Shown: piece by piece, positions 3,780 to 18,912 of the stretch
Numbering within the stretch: position 1 is the stretch's first letter
Layout of the letters: the number at the start of each line of letters is the position of its first letter
Assembly (NCBI GenBank): GCA_022821845.1
Contig: JAJECT010000006.1
Span: 1-45,117 of the forward strand
Direction: 5' to 3'
DNA from: Rhodothermales bacterium
GTDB lineage: Bacteria > Bacteroidota > Rhodothermia > Rhodothermales > VXPQ01
Length of the DNA stretch: 45,117 bases
Notes under the pieces: generated by a model
What the model was told of the DNA's origin: nothing
Seen by the model: the letters and a program-made list of their open reading frames with translations, nothing else
Database searches by the model: none
Made by a program: the position numbers and the translations under genes

Positions 3780-3817
3780 GCGCCGGGGGGGGGGTATGCG
3801 CTCCCCTGACGCGTCTA

Positions 3818-4048
3818 CTACCCCCTCGGCGGAAACGGGTCGTTACCGTACGAAAAGCGATCCCGGATACGTCCATCCCGGCGATGGATAAACAATTCGC
3901 TACCCTGATTCCGGGCAATCTCCCGGGCAGCGGCAGCTGCCTCGCGTTGCGTGGGATGAACTGAGGAGGCGCTACGGCTGCCAGCGCCTCGGACAGCCCA
4001 TCCCCGGTCGTGTGGAACAACATGTTGATTACGTTTACGTTTCGGCAT
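3818..4048 (-). CDS. DUF2188 domain protein
   Basis: A 76-residue protein, MPKRKRNQHVVPHDRGWAVR and onward, with the features of DUF2188: 'HVVP...GWAVRGAGSRSASSVHPTQREAAAAAREIARNQGSELFIHRRDGRIRDRFSYGNDP'. The family is short, cytoplasmic and of unknown function, often found on plasmids and in accessory regions. An upstream in-frame ATG at 4082-4084 would add 12 residues, but the family begins near the chosen ATG. It is divergent from the XRE-protease gene, and the region between them (4049-4175) probably holds both promoters. Confidence 0.75.
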   Translation of the reverse strand: MPKRKRNQHVVPHDRGWAVRGAGSRSASSVHPTQREAAAAAREIARNQGSELFIHRRDGRIRDRFSYGNDPFPPRG

Positions 4049-4175
4049 ATCCGCCCCCTGCTTAGCTGTTTTCCAGAGAACCATTCCCTTTAATAAACGT
4101 TGATCAGGTCGCTTTGATCCGGTTTATATTTATGAGCTATTTTTTAAAAACGTAAACCTCAAGATCGAAAATCAC

Positions 4176-5270
4176 ATGTTTGGAGACCGCCTGAAACTTG
4201 CCAGAAAAAAGGCCGGCTACTCGCTGCAGGGGTTGTCTGACGCCTTGAATAATCGAGTCAGCGCCCAAGCCCTCGGTAAATACGAGCGCGGCGAAATGAC
4301 GCCGAGTTCCAGCGTACTGATCAGCTTGGCCAAAGCACTGGACGTATCCCTGCACTACCTCCTGAGCGAGCAGGTTCAAAAACTTGACGAGGTGGAATTT
4401 CGCAAAACGACCGGCACATCGGCCCGCGACAGAGCACGGGTATCTGCTGAAGTCATCGACCGTTTGCAACGCTATTTGTCGGTTGAGGAAATCCTGGGGC
4501 TCGATAGCGGGGCATGGCATACCCTGAAATCAGCGAATCGCTTTCTGGGCGAAGAAAATGAGGCCGAGGTCATTGCCGAAGACATACGTAGGGCGTGGCG
4601 GCTCGGTATCGATCCCATCCCGAATATGACCGCCTTGCTCGAAGATCATGGAATCAAGGTCCTCGTAATCGATTTGCCGGAACGCGTATCAGGATTGACC
4701 TGTCTGGTCCACAGGCAACGCCATAAAAAGAAAGCCCCTGTGATTGTTGTAAACCGGAAACTTACGCTTGAGCGGCGACGATTTACGCTTGCCCACGAAC
4801 TCGCGCACCGCCTGATCGACGCCAGTTCTCCGGTAAATCACGAAAAAGCATCAAATATTTTTGCAGGAGCCTTCCTCGTTCCACGGGATCATCTGATCAG
4901 AGAAGCCGGAAGAATCCGACACGCCGTCGGCTACCGGGAATTGATCCATCTCAAGCGGATGTACCGCGTCAGCGCGGCCATGCTGCTCGTACGTTTCAGG
5001 CAGACCGGGGTGATCGATCAATCGGCGCTCGCCTATGCGTTCCAGACCTTTGCGCGGGGGTGGCGCTCCAGCGAACCCGAGCCGCTTGAGGCAAGCGGCG
5101 TAGAAGGGCTGTACGAAGCGCCGCGCCGGTTTGAACGGCTTTGTTATCGGGCGCTGGCCGAAGATTTTATATCGCCGAGCAAGGCAGGCGAGTTACTCCG
5201 CCAGCCTCTCGACAAGATTGAGCAGGGGTTAAGAGGGCCTGTCGGGACCGATGCGACATATTGTGATTGA
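4176..5270 (+). CDS. XRE-type regulator with ImmA/IrrE metallopeptidase domain
   Basis: A 364-residue two-domain protein. Residues 4-65 are an XRE helix-turn-helix ('RLKLARKKAGYSLQGLSDAL', 'GKYERGEMTPSSSVLISLAKALDV'). Residues about 135-260 are an ImmA/IrrE (COG2856) zinc protease domain with HELAH at 207-211 and the third-ligand region 'NHEKASNIFAGAFLVPRD'. In ICEBs1 (ImmA) and Deinococcus (IrrE/PprI) such proteases cleave a repressor in response to damage. Here repressor and protease are one polypeptide, as in many phage and toxin-antitoxin regulators. Its last 20 bases overlap the start of a PIN-domain gene, so the two are translationally coupled, and this protein is likely the antitoxin or regulator of that partner. 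No Shine-Dalgarno precedes the ATG. Confidence 0.88.
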   Translation: MFGDRLKLARKKAGYSLQGLSDALNNRVSAQALGKYERGEMTPSSSVLISLAKALDVSLHYLLSEQVQKLDEVEFRKTTGTSARDRARVSAEVIDRLQRYLSVEEILGLDSGAWHTLKSANRFLGEENEAEVIAEDIRRAWRLGIDPIPNMTALLEDHGIKVLVIDLPERVSGLTCLVHRQRHKKKAPVIVVNRKLTLERRRFTLAHELAHRLIDASSPVNHEKASNIFAGAFLVPRDHLIREAGRIRHAVGYRELIHLKRMYRVSAAMLLVRFRQTGVIDQSALAYAFQTFARGWRSSEPEPLEASGVEGLYEAPRRFERLCYRALAEDFISPSKAGELLRQPLDKIEQGLRGPVGTDATYCD

Positions 5271-5766
5271 CACATCCTGCATGATCGACTTGAGAAAAGC
5301 AGCGCTTATGGATGCTGCCCTGGCGCTTCCCTACGCGTTTGTAACGCCGGACACGCTGTTCGAGAACGAATGGCTGTCTCCTCCAGACGAAAAATTTCTA
5401 TGTAGCGGGAAGTTGAACGTACGCGAACTGCCAGGGGCCGATGTAAAACGCGCGGCGGCGTATCTCAACCGGCATAGAACCCTCAAAATCAATGACTGCT
5501 TCCTGCTCGCGATGGCAGAGCGTCTCAAGGAGAGTATCCTGCTCACCGGAGATCAGGCTTTAAGGGCCGTCGCCGAGCGCAATGGAATCGAGGTTCATGG
5601 CGTTTTATGGGTCATTGACATCCTGCAATCGCAGGAAATCGTACCTCTGCGCAAACTATGCGATGCGTTACGCCTGTTTCATGACGATCCCCGGGTGTTT
5701 CTGCCGACCGATGAAATTCTGCGACGCATAAAGCGCATGGAAAAACTGCTGGAACCTCCAAATTAA
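5251..5766 (+). CDS. PIN-domain-like putative ribonuclease (toxin partner)
   Basis: A 171-residue protein beginning MRHIVIDTSCMIDLRK. The opening IDTS with D7, the acidic pair E38/E40, D82 in 'KINDCFLLAMAE' and D101 in 'ILLTGDQALRAVAE' fit the four acidic positions of PIN-fold Mg-dependent RNases. The last 50 residues ('VPLRKLCDALRLFHDD...LPTDEILRRIKRMEKL') form a helical tail seen in DUF3368-like PIN proteins. It starts inside the 3' end of the XRE-protease gene (20-base overlap), which suggests a toxin-antitoxin or effector-regulator pair. RNase activity is inferred from the fold; the target is unknown. PIN toxins usually pair with small antitoxins, so a metalloprotease partner is unusual. 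Confidence 0.75.
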   Translation: MRHIVIDTSCMIDLRKAALMDAALALPYAFVTPDTLFENEWLSPPDEKFLCSGKLNVRELPGADVKRAAAYLNRHRTLKINDCFLLAMAERLKESILLTGDQALRAVAERNGIEVHGVLWVIDILQSQEIVPLRKLCDALRLFHDDPRVFLPTDEILRRIKRMEKLLEPPN

Positions 5767-5788
5767 CGGAGACCCTTGACGTAGTCCC

Positions 5789-5805
5789 CGGAAAATCCGT
5801 TTTTT
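5789..5805 (+). terminator. Weak terminator-like hairpin after the PIN gene
   Basis: A CGGA-AAA-TCCG hairpin followed directly by six T lies in the 73-base gap between two convergent genes. The stem is only four base pairs, so its efficiency is doubtful. Confidence 0.3.
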
Positions 5806-5839
5806 GAGGCAGTCCGGTAGCGAAGAGCGCTTGTTTTGA

Positions 5840-7579
5840 TCAGGTCTGTCCATTCGTCGGACAAGAGCCTGCCTCGACCATTGCACAGCCAGCACTTGTC
5901 CCAACGACCACCAGAAGGGACTTCGCCCGGCTCATGCCCACATAGAGCAATTCCTGGCTTTGCTCCCAATCGATACCGTCGATTCCCCACAAAATAACGA
6001 CGGGGGCTTCCAGACCCTTGAAACGCTTGACCGTGTCCATTAGCACCGTGTGATCACTGCGAACGCCTTCTACAAGCCATTTTGCCGGTTTCGGCAATGG
6101 CAGGCAGTGCAGAGCAGCATAGTAGCTCCCTTTGCTAACCGCATCCAAAATGAGAACGATTATGTCGCGGGAAGATACGCCTTGACAAACAATGAGATCA
6201 ACGATCCGGGCGTTAATTTTCCTGGCTTGCGCAACCCTGCTGGGAGCGCAATCAAATTGGACCTCCGCGCCTTCGTTATCGGGCGGAGAAACCGGTACGC
6301 CCCGGTAGTGCTTGTATGCAGCCGTATGAATCGGCACAGTGTTTCGACAATTCGTGGTCAGCAAAAAAGACTCCCCTTTAATCGGAAATGTGCTGGCTCG
6401 CGCATAAATATTCTGGTTGTTGTCATAGAAGACGTAAAGCGGGCTTTGGTCGTAATCGGCGAGAAGGAGTTCCAACGCAACCCAGAAATCCTCCCGGAAG
6501 TCCTGCCCCTCGTCGCAGATGATCGCCTCATACCGCTCTGGAAAAATATCGAGCGAGTACGTGAGCGCATTCGGTAGTTGCACGTCATACAGGTCCTTGC
6601 CTGGGTAGGTGGCCTTGGCCTCCGCCAACAAGTCACGACCCAACTCGCGGTCCGCTCTTTTAACTTGGCGATGGCAGAGTTGATGAAAGTTCATCACGTC
6701 TATATTGCTGGTGCCAAAACACAGGTGCGCCAAATGATCGGCCAGCTGCCTGTTATAGCAAGTGAACAGCGTCCGAAATCCCTCGTCGGCAAGACATCGC
6801 GCCTTCTCAAGCGCCAAGACCGTCTTTCCGGTCCCCGCTCCACCGCACACAGCCACGCGCCGATGAGAGCGCACGAAGTCGAGCACCCGCATTTGCTCCT
6901 GTGTCAACGCAAGCCTACGCGCTTCCTGCTCAACCAGCCGCGTACCAACCAACGGGACCACCTCGAATGATCGTGCAAACAATTCGCGGATCACCTCGAC
7001 GCCCTGGCGGCCCAGCGGTGTAACGTTGCGCGCATTCGCGCCCCAATAGGCGAAAACCGAATCGATCCAGCCCCGGGGATCCTCGAGATCCCTGGCAGTA
7101 CCAACCAATACTGCCGGCAAATCTGGCCTCCTAAGCGCATCAGCGGCCCCGATATCTGGAAAGAAGACCGCGTGTCCTCGAAGTACGTTGCCCGGCGCCA
7201 ATCTCCTCCAACGGAAATAATCGTCAAGTTTGGACCGAATAGAATACTTCGCTCTCATGGCTTGGTCGGCCGGGTTACTGATTTCGTGCCTCTGACGATG
7301 CCGGTCTATCGAGAACCACTGACCGGTAGCTGCCTCGAAACCCACACCACCGCCCTTGACCTCCACACATAGATAGCCATGGTTCGGATGGCATATCAGG
7401 AAATCGGTCTCTCCATCCCGCGCCCGTCCTTGCTCCCTTCGCAGGATCCATCCGACCTGAAAGAGAACCACATAGTCGTCGGGCAGGTTGTCCCTAAGCG
7501 ACCTGTAGACCTTCGCTTCGCCCCGTGAGGGCAGCTCATGCAACTGGACATCGGTGAGATCAGGAATTATCGTCGCCAT
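5840..7579 (-). CDS. NERD-domain nuclease / UvrD-like helicase fusion
   Basis: A 579-residue protein. Residues about 18-125 form a NERD domain, a restriction-endonuclease-like fold: E21 in 'SRGEAKVYRSL', D59 in 'GETDFLICHP' and 'CVEVKGG' (E73, K75). From about residue 220 an SF1 UvrD/Rep-type helicase follows: Q motif 'LTQEQMRVLDF', Walker A GGAGTGKT (246-253), Walker B DEGQD (356-360), 'TTNCRN', and motif VI 'ELLYVGMSRAK' near the end. It lacks the C-terminal Tudor module found in PcrA/UvrD. Its ATG lies 20 bases inside the 3' end of the large ATPase gene, so the two are co-translated. A nuclease-helicase tied to an Hsp90-like ATPase suggests ATP-driven recognition and cutting of foreign DNA. 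That role is inferred. Confidence 0.88.
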   Translation of the reverse strand: MATIIPDLTDVQLHELPSRGEAKVYRSLRDNLPDDYVVLFQVGWILRREQGRARDGETDFLICHPNHGYLCVEVKGGGVGFEAATGQWFSIDRHRQRHEISNPADQAMRAKYSIRSKLDDYFRWRRLAPGNVLRGHAVFFPDIGAADALRRPDLPAVLVGTARDLEDPRGWIDSVFAYWGANARNVTPLGRQGVEVIRELFARSFEVVPLVGTRLVEQEARRLALTQEQMRVLDFVRSHRRVAVCGGAGTGKTVLALEKARCLADEGFRTLFTCYNRQLADHLAHLCFGTSNIDVMNFHQLCHRQVKRADRELGRDLLAEAKATYPGKDLYDVQLPNALTYSLDIFPERYEAIICDEGQDFREDFWVALELLLADYDQSPLYVFYDNNQNIYARASTFPIKGESFLLTTNCRNTVPIHTAAYKHYRGVPVSPPDNEGAEVQFDCAPSRVAQARKINARIVDLIVCQGVSSRDIIVLILDAVSKGSYYAALHCLPLPKPAKWLVEGVRSDHTVLMDTVKRFKGLEAPVVILWGIDGIDWEQSQELLYVGMSRAKSLLVVVGTSAGCAMVEAGSCPTNGQT

Positions 7580-10500
7580 CGTCGTCTTGCAGAATATGCA
7601 TCTGGTGCAGGTTCAACGGCACGTTCGGGATGTCTTGATTCTTGCCGTCGAATCGGATGGTCAGCAGCTTTGTGCTACCACGTACATCGACATCAACGAT
7701 CTTGCCTGTCCCCATGACCTGGTGCTGAATGCGTACGCCCGGAATAAACTGCTTTGTCGGATCAGCCATCTCATCGGTCGCAGCTTCGCGCCAATTGCCA
7801 TCGAACATAAACGAGGTGACCTGCATCGCAGGGTTTCGGATGGGGTGAATGCAAACATGATCAGGATTTGAAACATTCTCAACCACATACAGCCAGTACC
7901 GGTCCCCGCAATCTTGGGCATTGCTAAACTGCGTTCTTGACAGCCCGACGCCAGTCTGGTTCCATTCGCCCATTATACCCTTGACTTCAATGATCCGATC
8001 CTCGCCCGTCAAAGGATCGTGGCTGGTAATGTCATACCCGGGATTCGTCTGGGCCATCTGCTTGGCAATTCGCCCGCGCTCTTTCTCGTAGGTACAAACC
8101 GCAGCGCGCGCAACGAACTCGACAGCAAGGTTGTGCTCCGATGGCCCCATTGACTCTTGGCCGCCTTCCGAAGATTCCTCTTGTACGCGTCTAACGTATG
8201 AAAGCAGACGCCGGTCCCACTGCTCCTTGTATTTCGGACGCTTCTTGCGCCTCGGATTCTCTTTTGTTTGCAGAAATTGCCCACCCGGAACCGAAACGTC
8301 CTTCCTTTGAATAGGTGTGACCTCGGAACCCTGTGTGCCTTGATTCTCCTCGTGCGACGAGTCACGGGGACCAACGTCCGGTGCCTCTGCTTCCAATTCG
8401 CCATCCTCAACCGTCGCGACGGGCTCATCCATTTGCCTTTCGTCTATTTGCTCTGCACTGGCACCCAACTCACCGAGTTCCTGCGAGGCTAAGTCGCCCG
8501 CATCTACGACCGGACGACCTTCGTCAAGTTGCGGCATGCCGGTATCGGTCAAATAGTCGTGCGCTCCTTCCGTTGTCTTTTCCATCAGGAGACCGGCTAG
8601 CGCTGTCAGTTTCGATATTTCGCTTCCGGTGGCCTCGGGTATCCACTGATGAAATATTGCATTCAGGATATGCGCCCAATTTCGGTTGTCGACAGGCCTG
8701 CGGATCGTGAGTAAACCTTCCTCAATCTCGTAGAAAGCTGGAGCCGGGACTGGCGGAGCGGATACGAAATCGTCTGTCAACTGGATGGATGCCTTGATGT
8801 GAACGGCATCGTAGCTGACTGCCTTCAGAACCGAGAGAGCGGTACAGACCCTGTTCCTGACCGTGGCTTGCTCGTCGTGCAGCAGTCGCGCAAAAACATC
8901 CTTTCGCTTCACCAACTTCTCGGCCAGCTCGGTTTCGTCCCGTTCCTCTCCGTGGACGTACTCAAGCGACACACTTGCACTTTCACTGAGCTTCTTGACC
9001 CCCAACTCCGTCGCCAGCGAGTCAACCCCGGCGGGTAACTTGCACAGCGCCCGGTCGAGTTCCCCGCCGAAGAAGTTGGCATACCACTCGCTGTCGTAGA
9101 GCAGGACCTCGTCTGGAAGGGTCGCCATGTCTGCCAAATTAAGGATGGCCGGTGCCTTACCGAGGCGTTGGAGCTCGACCGTGCCGCACTCCCCCTGTTC
9201 GTACGCCGTCGCCACCGCGTCGAGGCAGGTGTCATAGATGACTCGGTCAGCATCGACGACTGGCGCGAACCGTTTGAAGTGGTCCTCCGCGATGTCGATC
9301 AGTATAGCGACGTAGTCGGAACACTCCGGCGCATCCTTAACGCCGATAGCTTTGAACAACGGCGCGAAGGGCTTCATGCTATCGGGAACCCTGAAGGCGT
9401 ACTCGCCAAGCTGCTGCGCGCCCCAATAGACTTGGTTGGTCCGGACAAATTCGCCTTTGTTCTCGACGTAGATACACTGGGTGTCCTTGAGTTTCGCAAC
9501 CAGCGGGTCCGATACCCGCGCAGGTTCATTCAGTACTTGGTAGGTAAACTTGTGCGGCCCAATCCCTCGCTCCATGCAGTGTTTCAGGTGGTCGATCACG
9601 AGTTGCGTCGAAGGATTAATCTTAATTCCCAAGTCTCTCAACATTTCGGTCTTAAGGCGCTTCGTATCCCGGAATTTCAGTATCTTCGCTTGGGAACGGA
9701 AAGCGTCGGCTTGGAACGGCGCATACAGCGAATCCGGCGAATGCCAATTCAATGGGTCGCCGTCCACCGGAAGACAGTCTGTGCTGCGGAGGTCGGTGAT
9801 AGCCTCTTGGAACGCTGCTTTCTCTTTCCACGCCTCGTAGTTTTGACAAAGTTCGTAGAAAGCCTCGCTACTTGCCCGTTTCGCGTCATCGGTCGGCGGA
9901 GATCCGTCGGCAATGTCTAGAATTCTATCAACGAGGTGCCGGGGAGTAGCCGACTGAAGAATTCCGATTCCGTCAACGAAGTTGTGAACAGAATTGACAT
10001 CCGGTAGCCGGTTCTCATCCAGCCATAGATGCGCTGCATCGCCGAGCACCTGCACCAGCGCCTCTGATCGGCGATAGGTTTCGTCGGGTCGAGACCAGCC
10101 ACCGTCCTGGGTGGGGATAATCGGAAGAGATCCCAATATTTGGCGGGGACCGTCTTCGTCTATCAGTACCGAGTGCTTCGCGAGTTCAGTGATCAGACCC
10201 TGGTACTTCGTCGAATCTATAGGGCCTTGTTCGTCGAAAAAATTTGGGAGCATTTTTTCCACATAAGCATCGACTGTCTGCGTTTTGATACCGAGTTTCG
10301 TCGAGACGAATTCCCGGGCACGATCAGACAGGACTGATGTGTCGAGTAGGTTCGCCTGTCCAGTGGGGTCGATGAAGTCACCGGGAAGGAGTGCTTCGGT
10401 GGCTTTGACCAAACCGCTACCTGAACGCCAGATCGGCAGATCGGCCAAGGTTTTGTACACCCCAGGATTCGCGGTGCCATAATCATCTAACTCGGGAAAC

Positions 10501-12299
10501 AAACCGTAAAAATCACCCAACGCCTCCGATCCGGTACCAATGACATCTTCGGCAGGCTCCGAGGTAATCCTTGAGCCAATGTGGGAAACCACCTTGGCGA
10601 GATTCAAGGTCTGAACCTGTCCGCCAAGCTTCGGAAACTCAAGAAAATCGCGCGACGCAAGCGTGAGGCCCGGCAATAGCGCCGCAATCCGGTCCACCAT
10701 TGACTTTTTTGGCGCGGCATAAGCCCTGTCAATCGTAACAAGGCACAGGTCTTCCGTAACCACGAAAGGCAATGACTCCAAGCGCCGAGCCAGCTGATAA
10801 GGCACGGTGTTCGACTCCGGGAGCAGATCATTAACAAGGCGCCACAGAGGCTTATAGAAGATTTTCACTCTGCCTTCGTCCACTCGTGTCACCTGCCCAC
10901 CCCGTGCAGAAAGCACCGAACTCAGTAAATCGACCGTGCGCTTAAGCGTGAGAATCTTCGCCCCCAACTGTCCCATCACTACTTGGAACGGACGTAGTTT
11001 CTCAGACGCGAGTCTTCCACCGGCATATAGCAGCGCATCCGCCTGCTCTGTAGTCAGTGGATTGGGCGGAAGAAAAACCGCACCCGCTTGCTGAATACTG
11101 CCATCCTGGACCTGAACTATACACGCCTCCGTTGCTGTAGCTTTTGTGCATTCCCAGAAGTGCTTGTAACACCGAGGCGCTGACGGTTCGGATATCAAAT
11201 CAAAGGCCTTGCTCAGAGTTTTCCAAAACTGGCCAGGCCCGAGCATATCCAACAGCCCTTCGGGGTCACGAGCGATTTTTTCTGCCGCTGTTTTTATCAA
11301 CATCTCATTCCACGCCTGCTCATGTTGATCCCCATCAAAGATGACCTCCTTGCGGTTCGGTGCCGGAAAGAAATCCGCGTTAATGTGCAAGGGCAGCCCG
11401 GAAGATTGTTTGGTCGGCAGGAATGCATAGAGCAGTCCGTCGGAAAGAAGTTCGGGTTCGATACGCAGCCCGACACCTATCTCAGTGCTGCGCTTGAGCC
11501 CCGCCAGGCGGGAATACGTCTTGCAAAGCTGCTCGGCATTCTTCGCCGCGTCGGCGCGAAGGATATGCCATTTTTCAATCTCGCCGCTTGGGCGAAAGCG
11601 GACGCTCAGGCTGGGCTCGTCGCTCCGGTCTAAATCGCAGGCCAGCAGCAAGGCCCCGTGTCTCCATACCTCCGCACTGCGCACATGCCGAAGAAAGAGT
11701 AGGCTCTGTCGCAAGACACGTTTTAAGTCGGTGGCGACCTGGTCAATGTGGAACACTTCGATATGGGATACGCCCAGCTGCACACGCGCTCGCGTATCCG
11801 GCTTCCGAGCCCATGGCAGAAAAAATGTCGTCCCGGCAGGTTCGTCTGATAATTCTTCAATGGACCATTCCCCCTCTTCAGGGATAAGAGTCAACTTGAT
11901 GCCTGAAGAGCGAATCTCTGGACGATCCGTTATCTGGTAGGCCGAGAGAAACCCGATGCCGAAACGCCCGATATTTTCGTTCTGCAGCAGTTTTCCGCCA
12001 CTGCCCACATCTATGATGCGGTGGTAATCGCAAATTGCATTACCACCTTGTTTCGCTTGGAAGACACACGGCTTGGCGTTCAGGTCGCCACAGTAGCTGA
12101 ATTTACCGCTATTGTGTACTACGAGGCCGTCGTCAGTAATGTCGAAAACGATCTTCTGCGCTTTTGCGTCGTCGGCGTTCTGGACCAGTTCCAGCGCCAT
12201 CACGTCATAGCCCTGAAGACCAGCCAGGTGGCTGCGAATATTTCCGAGAAGATTTGCTGTATATGAACCGCGCTGCTGGCCCTGAACAGATTGATGCAT
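7560..12299 (-). CDS. Giant Hsp90/sacsin-type ATPase with DUF3883 and Tudor-like C-terminus
   Basis: A 1579-residue protein. The N-terminus is a GHKL (Hsp90/sacsin) ATPase: 'ALELVQNADDA' (residues 35-45, Mg-binding N box), 'ITDDGLVVHNSGK' (G1), 'NENIGRFGIGFLSAYQITDRP' (about 107-127) and 'AGTTFFLPW' (G3). The middle 1100 residues have no domain I can name and resemble the long linker arms of sacsin-like proteins. Residues about 1380-1480 are a DUF3883 domain ('NPGYDITSHDP...RIIEVKG', PD-(D/E)xK-like, residues 1419-1441). Residues about 1519-1565 ('PGVRIQHQVMGTGKIVDVD...LTIRFDG') resemble the Tudor domain at the end of UvrD/PcrA. The ATG at 12299 starts the conserved block; an in-frame ATG at 12362 is possible. 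It lies 92 bases after a reductase gene and overlaps the helicase gene. Confidence 0.88.
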   Translation of the reverse strand: MHQSVQGQQRGSYTANLLGNIRSHLAGLQGYDVMALELVQNADDAKAQKIVFDITDDGLVVHNSGKFSYCGDLNAKPCVFQAKQGGNAICDYHRIIDVGSGGKLLQNENIGRFGIGFLSAYQITDRPEIRSSGIKLTLIPEEGEWSIEELSDEPAGTTFFLPWARKPDTRARVQLGVSHIEVFHIDQVATDLKRVLRQSLLFLRHVRSAEVWRHGALLLACDLDRSDEPSLSVRFRPSGEIEKWHILRADAAKNAEQLCKTYSRLAGLKRSTEIGVGLRIEPELLSDGLLYAFLPTKQSSGLPLHINADFFPAPNRKEVIFDGDQHEQAWNEMLIKTAAEKIARDPEGLLDMLGPGQFWKTLSKAFDLISEPSAPRCYKHFWECTKATATEACIVQVQDGSIQQAGAVFLPPNPLTTEQADALLYAGGRLASEKLRPFQVVMGQLGAKILTLKRTVDLLSSVLSARGGQVTRVDEGRVKIFYKPLWRLVNDLLPESNTVPYQLARRLESLPFVVTEDLCLVTIDRAYAAPKKSMVDRIAALLPGLTLASRDFLEFPKLGGQVQTLNLAKVVSHIGSRITSEPAEDVIGTGSEALGDFYGLFPELDDYGTANPGVYKTLADLPIWRSGSGLVKATEALLPGDFIDPTGQANLLDTSVLSDRAREFVSTKLGIKTQTVDAYVEKMLPNFFDEQGPIDSTKYQGLITELAKHSVLIDEDGPRQILGSLPIIPTQDGGWSRPDETYRRSEALVQVLGDAAHLWLDENRLPDVNSVHNFVDGIGILQSATPRHLVDRILDIADGSPPTDDAKRASSEAFYELCQNYEAWKEKAAFQEAITDLRSTDCLPVDGDPLNWHSPDSLYAPFQADAFRSQAKILKFRDTKRLKTEMLRDLGIKINPSTQLVIDHLKHCMERGIGPHKFTYQVLNEPARVSDPLVAKLKDTQCIYVENKGEFVRTNQVYWGAQQLGEYAFRVPDSMKPFAPLFKAIGVKDAPECSDYVAILIDIAEDHFKRFAPVVDADRVIYDTCLDAVATAYEQGECGTVELQRLGKAPAILNLADMATLPDEVLLYDSEWYANFFGGELDRALCKLPAGVDSLATELGVKKLSESASVSLEYVHGEERDETELAEKLVKRKDVFARLLHDEQATVRNRVCTALSVLKAVSYDAVHIKASIQLTDDFVSAPPVPAPAFYEIEEGLLTIRRPVDNRNWAHILNAIFHQWIPEATGSEISKLTALAGLLMEKTTEGAHDYLTDTGMPQLDEGRPVVDAGDLASQELGELGASAEQIDERQMDEPVATVEDGELEAEAPDVGPRDSSHEENQGTQGSEVTPIQRKDVSVPGGQFLQTKENPRRKKRPKYKEQWDRRLLSYVRRVQEESSEGGQESMGPSEHNLAVEFVARAAVCTYEKERGRIAKQMAQTNPGYDITSHDPLTGEDRIIEVKGIMGEWNQTGVGLSRTQFSNAQDCGDRYWLYVVENVSNPDHVCIHPIRNPAMQVTSFMFDGNWREAATDEMADPTKQFIPGVRIQHQVMGTGKIVDVDVRGSTKLLTIRFDGKNQDIPNVPLNLHQMHILQDDDGDDNS

Positions 12300-12391
12300 T
12301 CCTGCTTGTGGAAAATCAAGTGTTAGTAAGCTGACTGTACAAATTTGATATTTCCTTGACATCCAGCAACGCCGAGCGCAGCCAGCGCGCC

Positions 12392-17635: not shown

Positions 17636-18511
17636 TCAAAGCCGAATCATCTCTGCCTTATACAATTGCGGAACAAGCGCAACATGCTGTTTAATACATC
17701 CCGGAAGCAAGAACATACGAGGATCACGACTAAAATCAAACAGTCGATACAGTGCATATTGCGAATCTCTTGTCTCCGAAAAAGCAACTTCGTTCTGCGT
17801 AATTAAAAAGGGTTGATACATACCGCTATTGGTGGTTTTAACCTCGATAAAAAGTTCATTATCGGTTGGACCGTCAAACGAGCGTATGTCATACCCTGCG
17901 CCATCGCCACGCTCCTTGCTTGTCCATTCTACCGCAGAAATTAAATCGGCGCGCCCCAAACGTTTTAGGCGAAACTTCTCATATTCCAATATAAATTTTT
18001 CTCCTTGTTCGCCGAGTTGCCTGTTACGCGCTTCTCGCGCGGCGTAGTCAATACGGCGTGGTCTGGCAGTATATTCTGAAGCAGGCTCCGATATGATTTC
18101 TTTACTTGGATATATAATTTTTTTTTCTGGAGGCTCAACAAGAACCTCTTCAAAAGATGACTCGTCAAATAATTTTCCCCTTTCTTGATTCAGTTTATTC
18201 TCTTGGTTAATCAGATTATTCCCTTCTGCGACCAGGCTGTCTACTACTACTTTCCGTAACAGTCTTTGATAATTTTTTGCAGGGCGATAACCTCGAATAT
18301 AAATATAGCCTTCTTCCAATAATATCGCAGATATATTTTGATGTTTAAATTCTATAGATTTTTTAGACCTGTTTTGCAACTGCTTTTGCAGAACTCGACG
18401 ATGCTGTGATTTATTGAATGATTCGCCACGACATTCTTGCGACAACATATCGATATAGTCGGCAACGATTGCTTCGCATTCCGCCCTGCTCCATGGATCG
18501 CTTCTGGACAT
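17636..18511 (-). CDS. DUF3883 restriction-like protein with N-terminal winged-helix-like domain
   Basis: A 291-residue protein. Residues about 7-85 ('WSRAECEAIVADYIDMLSQE', 'FKHQNISAILLEEGYIYIRGYRPAKNYQ') form a domain often placed before nuclease domains in HNH and DUF3883 proteins. Residues about 160-285 are DUF3883: 'LGEQGEKFILEYE', 'GAGYDIRSFD' and 'LFIEVKTTNSG', giving the D...ExK layout of a PD-(D/E)xK nuclease-like fold. The gene is visibly richer in A/T than the TonB receptor and gyrA genes on either side, with homopolymer tracts near 18118 and 18360, so it was probably acquired by transfer. It has no obvious partner; a solitary modification-dependent or restriction-like role is inferred. 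Confidence 0.8.
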   Translation of the reverse strand: MSRSDPWSRAECEAIVADYIDMLSQECRGESFNKSQHRRVLQKQLQNRSKKSIEFKHQNISAILLEEGYIYIRGYRPAKNYQRLLRKVVVDSLVAEGNNLINQENKLNQERGKLFDESSFEEVLVEPPEKKIIYPSKEIISEPASEYTARPRRIDYAAREARNRQLGEQGEKFILEYEKFRLKRLGRADLISAVEWTSKERGDGAGYDIRSFDGPTDNELFIEVKTTNSGMYQPFLITQNEVAFSETRDSQYALYRLFDFSRDPRMFLLPGCIKQHVALVPQLYKAEMIRL

Positions 18512-18912
18512 AAGAAATAGATTTTACCGGGAATGTAAAGGCGTTAATGCAAGAATGCAAGGAGCACAGCGACAGGGCTTGTGCGTATTGGACAAAATGC
18601 CCTGCATGGCGCCTGCTTTCCCTAAATGATACGCCACCCGATGCTTTCTGTCAAGCAAAATCCGACCGGATTAGGCCTTGGCGGGGGCTTGCATTGTTGC
18701 TCCGGCAGCGTCCTCAGCCCCCTCTCCCCCACCCCCTTCACCAAATTTTCCCGTAATTCTTTGCCTTTTAACGACTTGCGGACGCGCTGAAAAATCCCGA
18801 AACGTTGCGTGGAAGCGGAAAATTCCGTACTTTGTCAGGATATGGCCTTTTTCGGAGACCCTCCGGCGGGGCCGCACCATTTTCAGGCGTTTTCAATCCT
18901 TACGCAAGCTGC
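18512..18912. other. Intergenic region between the DUF3883 gene and gyrA
   Basis: No gene is recognisable in these 401 bases, and no tRNA cloverleaf is visible. The left edge is AT-rich and contains the promoter region of the divergent DUF3883 gene. The centre is C-rich without repeats. The right part holds the probable gyrA promoter. Confidence 0.5.
18805..18834 (+). promoter_or_regulatory. Possible Bacteroidota-type promoter of gyrA
   Basis: TTG (18805-18807) and TACTTTG (18828-18834) are separated by 20 bases, close to the FCB housekeeping consensus of TTTG and TAnnTTTG, with one base fewer in the -7 box. They lie about 80 bases upstream of the gyrA ATG. Position and similarity are suggestive only. 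Confidence 0.35.

Follow-up and report, generated by a model that had tools for sequence, protein, structure and literature searches.

Tiamat is listed as a single-gene defense system, and to our knowledge the mechanism of its protein, TmtA, is unexplained. Among related systems, defense by VcSduA, a Shedu protein with a GHKL ATPase, requires both its GHKL and its PD-(D/E)XK activities (PMC12137116), and Gabija, a nuclease-helicase pair that acts in phage defense, has been reported not to act abortively in P. aeruginosa (PMC12407980). NERD nucleases occur in TALON systems according to the YprA paper (PMC12458937), and those of Pgl/BREX and Dnd systems are proposed to serve as suicidal effectors kept in reserve (PMC12839542, PMC10853773); none of these accounts, in the passages on NERD, pairs it with a GHKL ATPase. 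The locus described here joins tmtA to a gene for a NERD-UvrD helicase. The two genes make up a conserved, co-inherited, mobile and probably virus-fighting pair that recurs in many unrelated bacteria, and the reading preferred here, with a probability of about 0.6, is that they form a horizontally moved two-gene unit of anti-phage defense: a Tiamat variant that encodes a helicase-nuclease alongside TmtA. A two-gene unit is supported by the conserved adjacency and fixed overlap of the genes, their co-inheritance, the intact active-site motifs, the defense-island setting and the presence or absence of the pair between sister species.

The window, that is, the whole 45,117-nt stretch of DNA that was analyzed, comes from contig JAJECT010000006.1 of a Rhodothermales bacterium, and all coordinates are positions within it. 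Both genes lie on the minus strand: tmtA (7560-12299; ATG at 12299) encodes 1579 residues comprising a GHKL (sacsin/Hsp90-type) ATPase, a long middle region, a DUF3883 nuclease and a Tudor domain, and the helicase gene (5840-7579; ATG start) encodes 579 residues comprising a NERD nuclease and a UvrD-like SF1 helicase. The 3′ end of tmtA and the 5′ end of the helicase gene share 20 nt (7560-7579, minus strand), and this overlap is not a product of chance because exactly the same 20 nt are shared in 18 of 20 GTDB relatives. In most relatives a purine-rich, Shine-Dalgarno-like stretch (GGAAGA/GAGGA-like) lies within the tmtA 3′ end, ahead of the helicase ATG, which suggests that translation of the two genes is coupled. 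Promoter and terminator scans gave matches no more numerous than those in shuffled sequence.

The ATPase is a full-length TmtA (PADLOC PDLC03969, 1867.5 bits, residues 6-1568). An earlier, sequence-only reading of this DNA, which had correctly placed both open reading frames and their 20 shared nucleotides, had taken the protein to be something other than Tiamat, and in this respect it is superseded. A PDLC03969-type match was found for all 20 members of the TmtA alignment; the remaining PADLOC TmtA models match in parts only, and the window protein therefore represents one specific TmtA clade. Its Bergerat ATP-binding fold (residues 33-133; 11901-12203, minus strand) is recognized by the Pfam family for the sacsin-type Hsp90 ATPase (SACS, E 1.3e-17; 64.9 bits vs. 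a cut-off of 32.8), has an N-box (ELVQNADDA) and a G2 motif (IGRFGIGF) that are kept in the 20 relatives, and by sequence profile is nearest, among solved structures, to sacsin (5v44-5v47, E 2e-12 to 2e-11). The middle region (residues 380-1260; 8520-11162, minus strand) is predicted to consist of helices and beta-hairpins in an AF2 model of residues 380-1579 (mean pLDDT 76.9); Foldseek gave no match to it at E<=0.001, the structural match list for this model being taken up by the nuclease and Tudor domains, and no new fold is claimed for it. Seven internal repeats, suspected in the middle region from a recurring helix/hairpin pattern, were rejected, as profile-profile comparison never gave more than 58% (two units) and in most cases gave less than 10%.

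The C-terminal part of TmtA holds a nuclease domain (residues 1384-1512; 7764-8150, minus strand) in which Pfam NOV_C, equivalent to DUF3883, matches residues 1394-1479 (3.2e-17; 62.8 bits vs. a cut-off of 22.1). As modeled, this domain adopts a PD-(D/E)XK fold; the structures closest to it are those of the SPARDA nuclease subunit (VIA Z 11.4, rmsd 3.2, 120 residues) and the Holliday junction resolvase Hjc (VIA Z 10.2, rmsd 2.8, 108 residues), and D1423 and E1438xK1440 are invariant in TmtA relatives. The sequence-only reading had described a GHKL ATPase ending in DUF3883; Pfam confirms both domains, but DUF3883 is not the last, since it is followed at residues ~1517-1570 (7590-7751, minus strand) by a domain that resembles the C-terminal Tudor of UvrD/PcrA. 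The model of this domain matches 9dqs, 5dma and 7egs (VIA Z 7.2, 7.1 and 6.8, over 53-54 residues), the last being the UvrD C-terminal domain solved with an RNA polymerase lobe; the sequence profile independently reaches 9dqs, 7egs and 6yi2 (E 0.009-0.022), and the Pfam match falls under its cut-off (14.8 vs. 23.9 bits). A Z near 7 is modest by itself, and the assignment is backed by the agreement of sequence and fold. The Tudor was found in TmtAs of the window clade, in a Sphingomonas TmtA and in a Microvirga TmtA; it was undetected in the other TmtAs compared, including one of another clade that is paired with a helicase. As the Microvirga TmtA has no helicase at its locus and the paired TmtA of the other clade has no detected Tudor, the domain is not strictly tied to the pair. 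A second, small DUF3883 protein is encoded elsewhere in the window (17639-18511, minus strand; 291 aa; NOV_C 8.9e-21), at the same place as in congeners, next to gyrA at 18805.

The helicase was correctly recognized by the sequence-only reading as a NERD-nuclease/UvrD protein: the NERD domain (residues 19-118; 7226-7525, minus strand) scores 38.6 bits vs. a Pfam cut-off of 22.1, and UvrD_C_2, AAA_19 and UvrD-helicase all exceed theirs. The nuclease residues E21, D59, E73xK75 and Q106 are invariant across 21 homologues with identity as low as 26%, and the SF1A core (residues 225-560; 5900-6907, minus strand) has intact motifs Q, I, Ia and II-VI, of which I-VI are kept in the 21 homologues. The pair thus has intact motifs in its two nucleases and its helicase as well as two intact ATPase sites, in agreement with the two nucleases and two ATPases proposed by that reading. 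The AF2 model of the helicase (mean pLDDT 86) finds SLFN11, UvrD and PcrA as its best Foldseek matches, and the protein stops right after motif VI, with no Tudor of its own seen. A blastn search of E. coli genomes returned no similar helicase DNA. The same genome encodes a second, diverged NERD-helicase (G000:C29:124479-125954; L068 8345-9994, minus strand) outside any TmtA context, adjoining a sodium:solute symporter gene.

Conservation of the pair was followed in a scan with one genome per GTDB species, which identified 20 TmtA relatives (52-65% identity), mostly from Gamma- and Betaproteobacteria, with two from Geobacteraceae and one from a Phycisphaerae MAG. The same helicase lies directly downstream of tmtA in all 20; the exact overlap is departed from only in L013 (8 nt) and in L007, where the match begins two residues into the gene. 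The same pair occurs on two viral contigs, a Sphingomonas plasmid carries a more divergent one (TmtA 30% and helicase 47% identical, genes 2 nt apart), and on a viral contig a TmtA of a different PADLOC clade (PDLC03965, 502.6 bits; SACS 8e-64) has a 41%-identical helicase behind it. Viral contigs searched with other pairs as queries yielded no further family members, and tblastn of phage records yielded no TmtA. The flanks of the 20 loci were also examined for a conserved third gene, and none is common to all.

The two genes are not equally well preserved. At 17 of the 20 loci tmtA is a single open frame, and the helicase is full length at 13; elsewhere it is cut by an assembly gap (L014), lies near a contig end (L007) or, at five loci, is broken by stops and a deletion (L010), by a frameshift/deletion (L012, L025), by an internal deletion (L022) or by a transposase-like insertion (L024). 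A broken helicase stands beside an open tmtA in four relatives (L010, L022, L024, L025), and the converse, a disturbed tmtA with an intact helicase, occurs at two MAG loci (L015, L017). Given the gene lengths, four breaks of six in the helicase correspond to a P of about 0.05 for loci that were selected through tmtA, which is a hint only that breaks lean to helicase loss. The dN/dS of tmtA is about 0.11, in pairs with a broken helicase as well, a ratio that cannot date a break. The four relatives with an open tmtA imply that the helicase is dispensable at times, and, as far as gene integrity can tell, TmtA may work alone as well as in the pair. These breaks, the low dN/dS beside them, the occurrence of related TmtAs without a helicase and the standing of Tiamat as a single-gene system would all suit a Tiamat that acts alone, with the helicase as a semi-independent passenger that serves as an accessory, broadening its range or backing it up. 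Such a passenger is nonetheless unlikely: the breaks may be recent, and the adjacency at every locus, the 18 fixed overlaps and two features of the phylogenies, a single clade of TmtA-linked helicases and a helicase that evolves more slowly than TmtA, point to a selected unit.

Of 32 NERD-UvrD helicases placed in a tree, the 18 that are TmtA-linked form this clade (support 100/99), which is sister to helicases that follow DrmA-DrmB. Protein distance matrices of TmtA and helicase correlate closely (r = 0.957, 66 pairs), with TmtA evolving ~1.6 times faster. The TmtA tree, in which several branches are long and the deep joins unsure, requires at least three changes of the paired state; the Microvirga TmtA is sister to the paired Sphingomonas TmtA and has no helicase at its locus, and the TmtA loci L005, L006 and L038 also lack one. 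The pair therefore characterizes one large TmtA clade and is not universal in the TmtA family. The helicase-less TmtA-like genes of L038, L039 and L006 stand among other large genes: that of L038 adjoins a type III methyltransferase, L039 has a similar gene layout, and that of L006 adjoins a class I methyltransferase and a specificity subunit.

Within the phylum sample, tmtA was found in 1 of 395 genomes, the sole carrier being the window's own; with relatives that are mostly Proteobacteria, the distribution therefore fits a horizontal gain of tmtA and the helicase. In a congener (G301; about 91-96% identity), window positions 3790 and 12371 are only 3 nt apart, so that a segment of 8.6 kb (3791-12370) is absent from this sister species, and other congeners carry unrelated genes at the insertion site. 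The G+C content of the segment is 0.52-0.57, vs. about 0.58-0.65 for most of the window beyond 14 kb. Nearer the window's start, a short stretch (2238-2324) has dozens of copies across the genomes of the genus (about 85% identity), and a 140-base sequence at 1-145, with near-identical copies at the ends of several contigs and at other places in its own genome and a sister species, is probably a mobile-element end.

The segment also holds a second pair of genes, which the coordinates of the sequence-only reading had omitted. Overlapping on the plus strand (4176-5766), these encode an HTH and ImmA/IrrE (M78) protein that is RmrA-like or spr1629-antitoxin-like (4176-5270; Pfam and PADLOC, with NCBIfam below its cut-off) and a PIN-domain protein that is a likely toxin (5251-5766; Pfam PIN, 30.1 bits), and they resemble a toxin-antitoxin pair. 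Their presence in the same insertion, together with an ImmA/IrrE gene beside the Microvirga TmtA and an RmrA-like protein in the vicinity of one other pair, could mean that all four genes function as a cassette with the HTH-ImmA protein as its regulator. This is very unlikely: in another congener (G395) an HTH-ImmA and PIN pair (85% identical) adjoins the same epimerase gene at the same site in the absence of tmtA and helicase, and the 20 loci share no third gene; therefore, the HTH-ImmA and PIN genes are more likely island neighbors.

Among the genes around the 20 pairs are matches to PADLOC models for MADS (mad2, mad5), type I R-M, BREX BrxC, DpdF, DpdH, Shango SngC, PsyrT, Gabija GajA/GajB, type III methyltransferase and RmrA. 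These neighborhoods are defense islands, as judged from the many strong matches to dedicated defense proteins in the pairs' own flanks. A UvrD/PcrA-type helicase and a Tudor domain might be expected of a DNA-repair or housekeeping pair, but such a role is extremely improbable for genes with a patchy distribution, defense-island neighbors, presence and absence between sister species, and copies on a plasmid and on viral contigs. The coupled pair and the defense island that the sequence-only reading had anticipated are thus both upheld, with mobility at the species level in addition. That reading would have yielded to finding the genes apart and in core positions or matching a named system: they are neither apart nor core, one of them does belong to a named system, and the pair itself matches none found.

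If the pair is a two-gene Tiamat, translational coupling would allow TmtA and the helicase to be made in balance, and the two may form a complex whose target would be DNA. The sacsin/Hsp90-type ATPase of TmtA could act as an ATP-gated clamp or switch that restrains the nucleases until an infection cue arrives, for which candidates are DNA with altered ends, an intermediate of replication or of transcription, or a phage protein; the SF1A helicase would then unwind the DNA and translocate along it, and the two PD-(D/E)XK nucleases, DUF3883 on TmtA and NERD on the helicase, would cut it. The UvrD-type Tudor, which in UvrD/PcrA is on the helicase itself and here is on TmtA, may anchor the complex on RNA polymerase or on the helicase. 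Without its partner, TmtA would probably retain some activity. Parallels for this scheme are VcSduA, in which GHKL is needed together with the PD-(D/E)XK nuclease, and Hachiman and Gabija, in which a nuclease and a helicase serve phage defense. A more specific version is improbable: in it, TmtA would have taken over from UvrD/PcrA-type helicases the Tudor that docks to RNA polymerase, the GHKL clamp would thereby bring the complex to transcribed phage DNA, and the NERD-UvrD protein, a plug-in effector also used by DrmA-DrmB systems, would be set free there to unwind the DNA and cut it. The nucleases might also turn on the host chromosome or RNA upon infection and stop the cell. The suicidal role proposed for NERD nucleases of Pgl/BREX and Dnd systems (PMC12839542, PMC10853773) and a helicase core closest to human Schlafen 11/14 lend such abortive infection a minority chance; against it, a nuclease-fused helicase suits the degradation of long DNA, and the comparable Gabija pair is reported to be non-abortive in P. 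aeruginosa (PMC12407980).

The helicase partner, the fixed overlap and the UvrD-type Tudor are concrete handles on how Tiamat acts. Were only the ATPase annotated, the second gene would be missed, and assays of tmtA from this clade that leave out its helicase may underestimate or misinterpret what tmtA does. No two-gene model was found that matches the pair, and no account of TmtA or Tiamat together with NERD, UvrD or a helicase was found in the open literature searched, which covers few subscription papers and not the one that first described Tiamat.

VcSduA, like TmtA, carries an N-terminal GHKL ATPase and a C-terminal PD-(D/E)XK nuclease in a single protein; its nuclease is DUF4263, with no helicase partner reported, whereas that of TmtA is DUF3883, and Pfam finds no DUF4263 here. 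Hachiman (HamA-HamB) is likewise a two-gene nuclease-helicase system, in which the helicase is reported to restrain the nuclease; however, HamB is an SF2 (Ski2-like) helicase and HamA belongs to another nuclease family, neither of them found here among the PADLOC matches listed. Gabija (GajA-GajB) shares the two-gene arrangement of an ATPase-nuclease and a UvrD-like helicase, and the helicase here weakly matches GajB profiles, but GajA is an OLD/TOPRIM ATPase-nuclease and TmtA has no GajA match in PADLOC. GajB is not known to contain anything equivalent to the NERD domain.

The NERD-UvrD helicases already in PADLOC have the same domain order (RTasNERD-Hel PDLC03813, 206.6 bits; C3a187, 103.3 bits), but the TmtA-linked helicases form their own clade, and, unlike the DRT-associated type, have no reverse transcriptase among the neighboring genes scanned here. 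The helicases of the sister clade, 26-36% identical, lie directly behind DrmB-like genes in DrmA-DrmB (DISARM-like) loci, where the partner is a YprA-type helicase with a DUF1998 protein instead of a GHKL ATPase. DrmA and DrmB accompany these sister helicases only, the neighbors in the window being HTH-ImmA, PIN and epimerase genes. Related NERD-UvrD helicases behind DrmA and DrmB/DUF1998-like genes constitute a recurring DISARM-like operon (L041, L042, L044, L031, L032), and L047 and L069 were judged by gene layout to be DrmA-DrmB-helicase operons as well. That members of one helicase subfamily follow either TmtA or DrmA-DrmB, large partners unrelated to each other, suggests an effector that bacterial immunity can reuse. 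Tiamat (TmtA, PDLC03969) itself is matched by the whole ATPase protein, with its N-terminal sacsin-type ATPase and DUF3883 near the C-terminus; it differs here in that a NERD-UvrD helicase follows with a fixed overlap and that TmtA carries a UvrD-type Tudor, which is undetected in the more distant TmtAs compared. Absence from the literature is not proof of novelty; TmtA and Tiamat are known, and the NERD-UvrD helicase locked to TmtA is rated as new.
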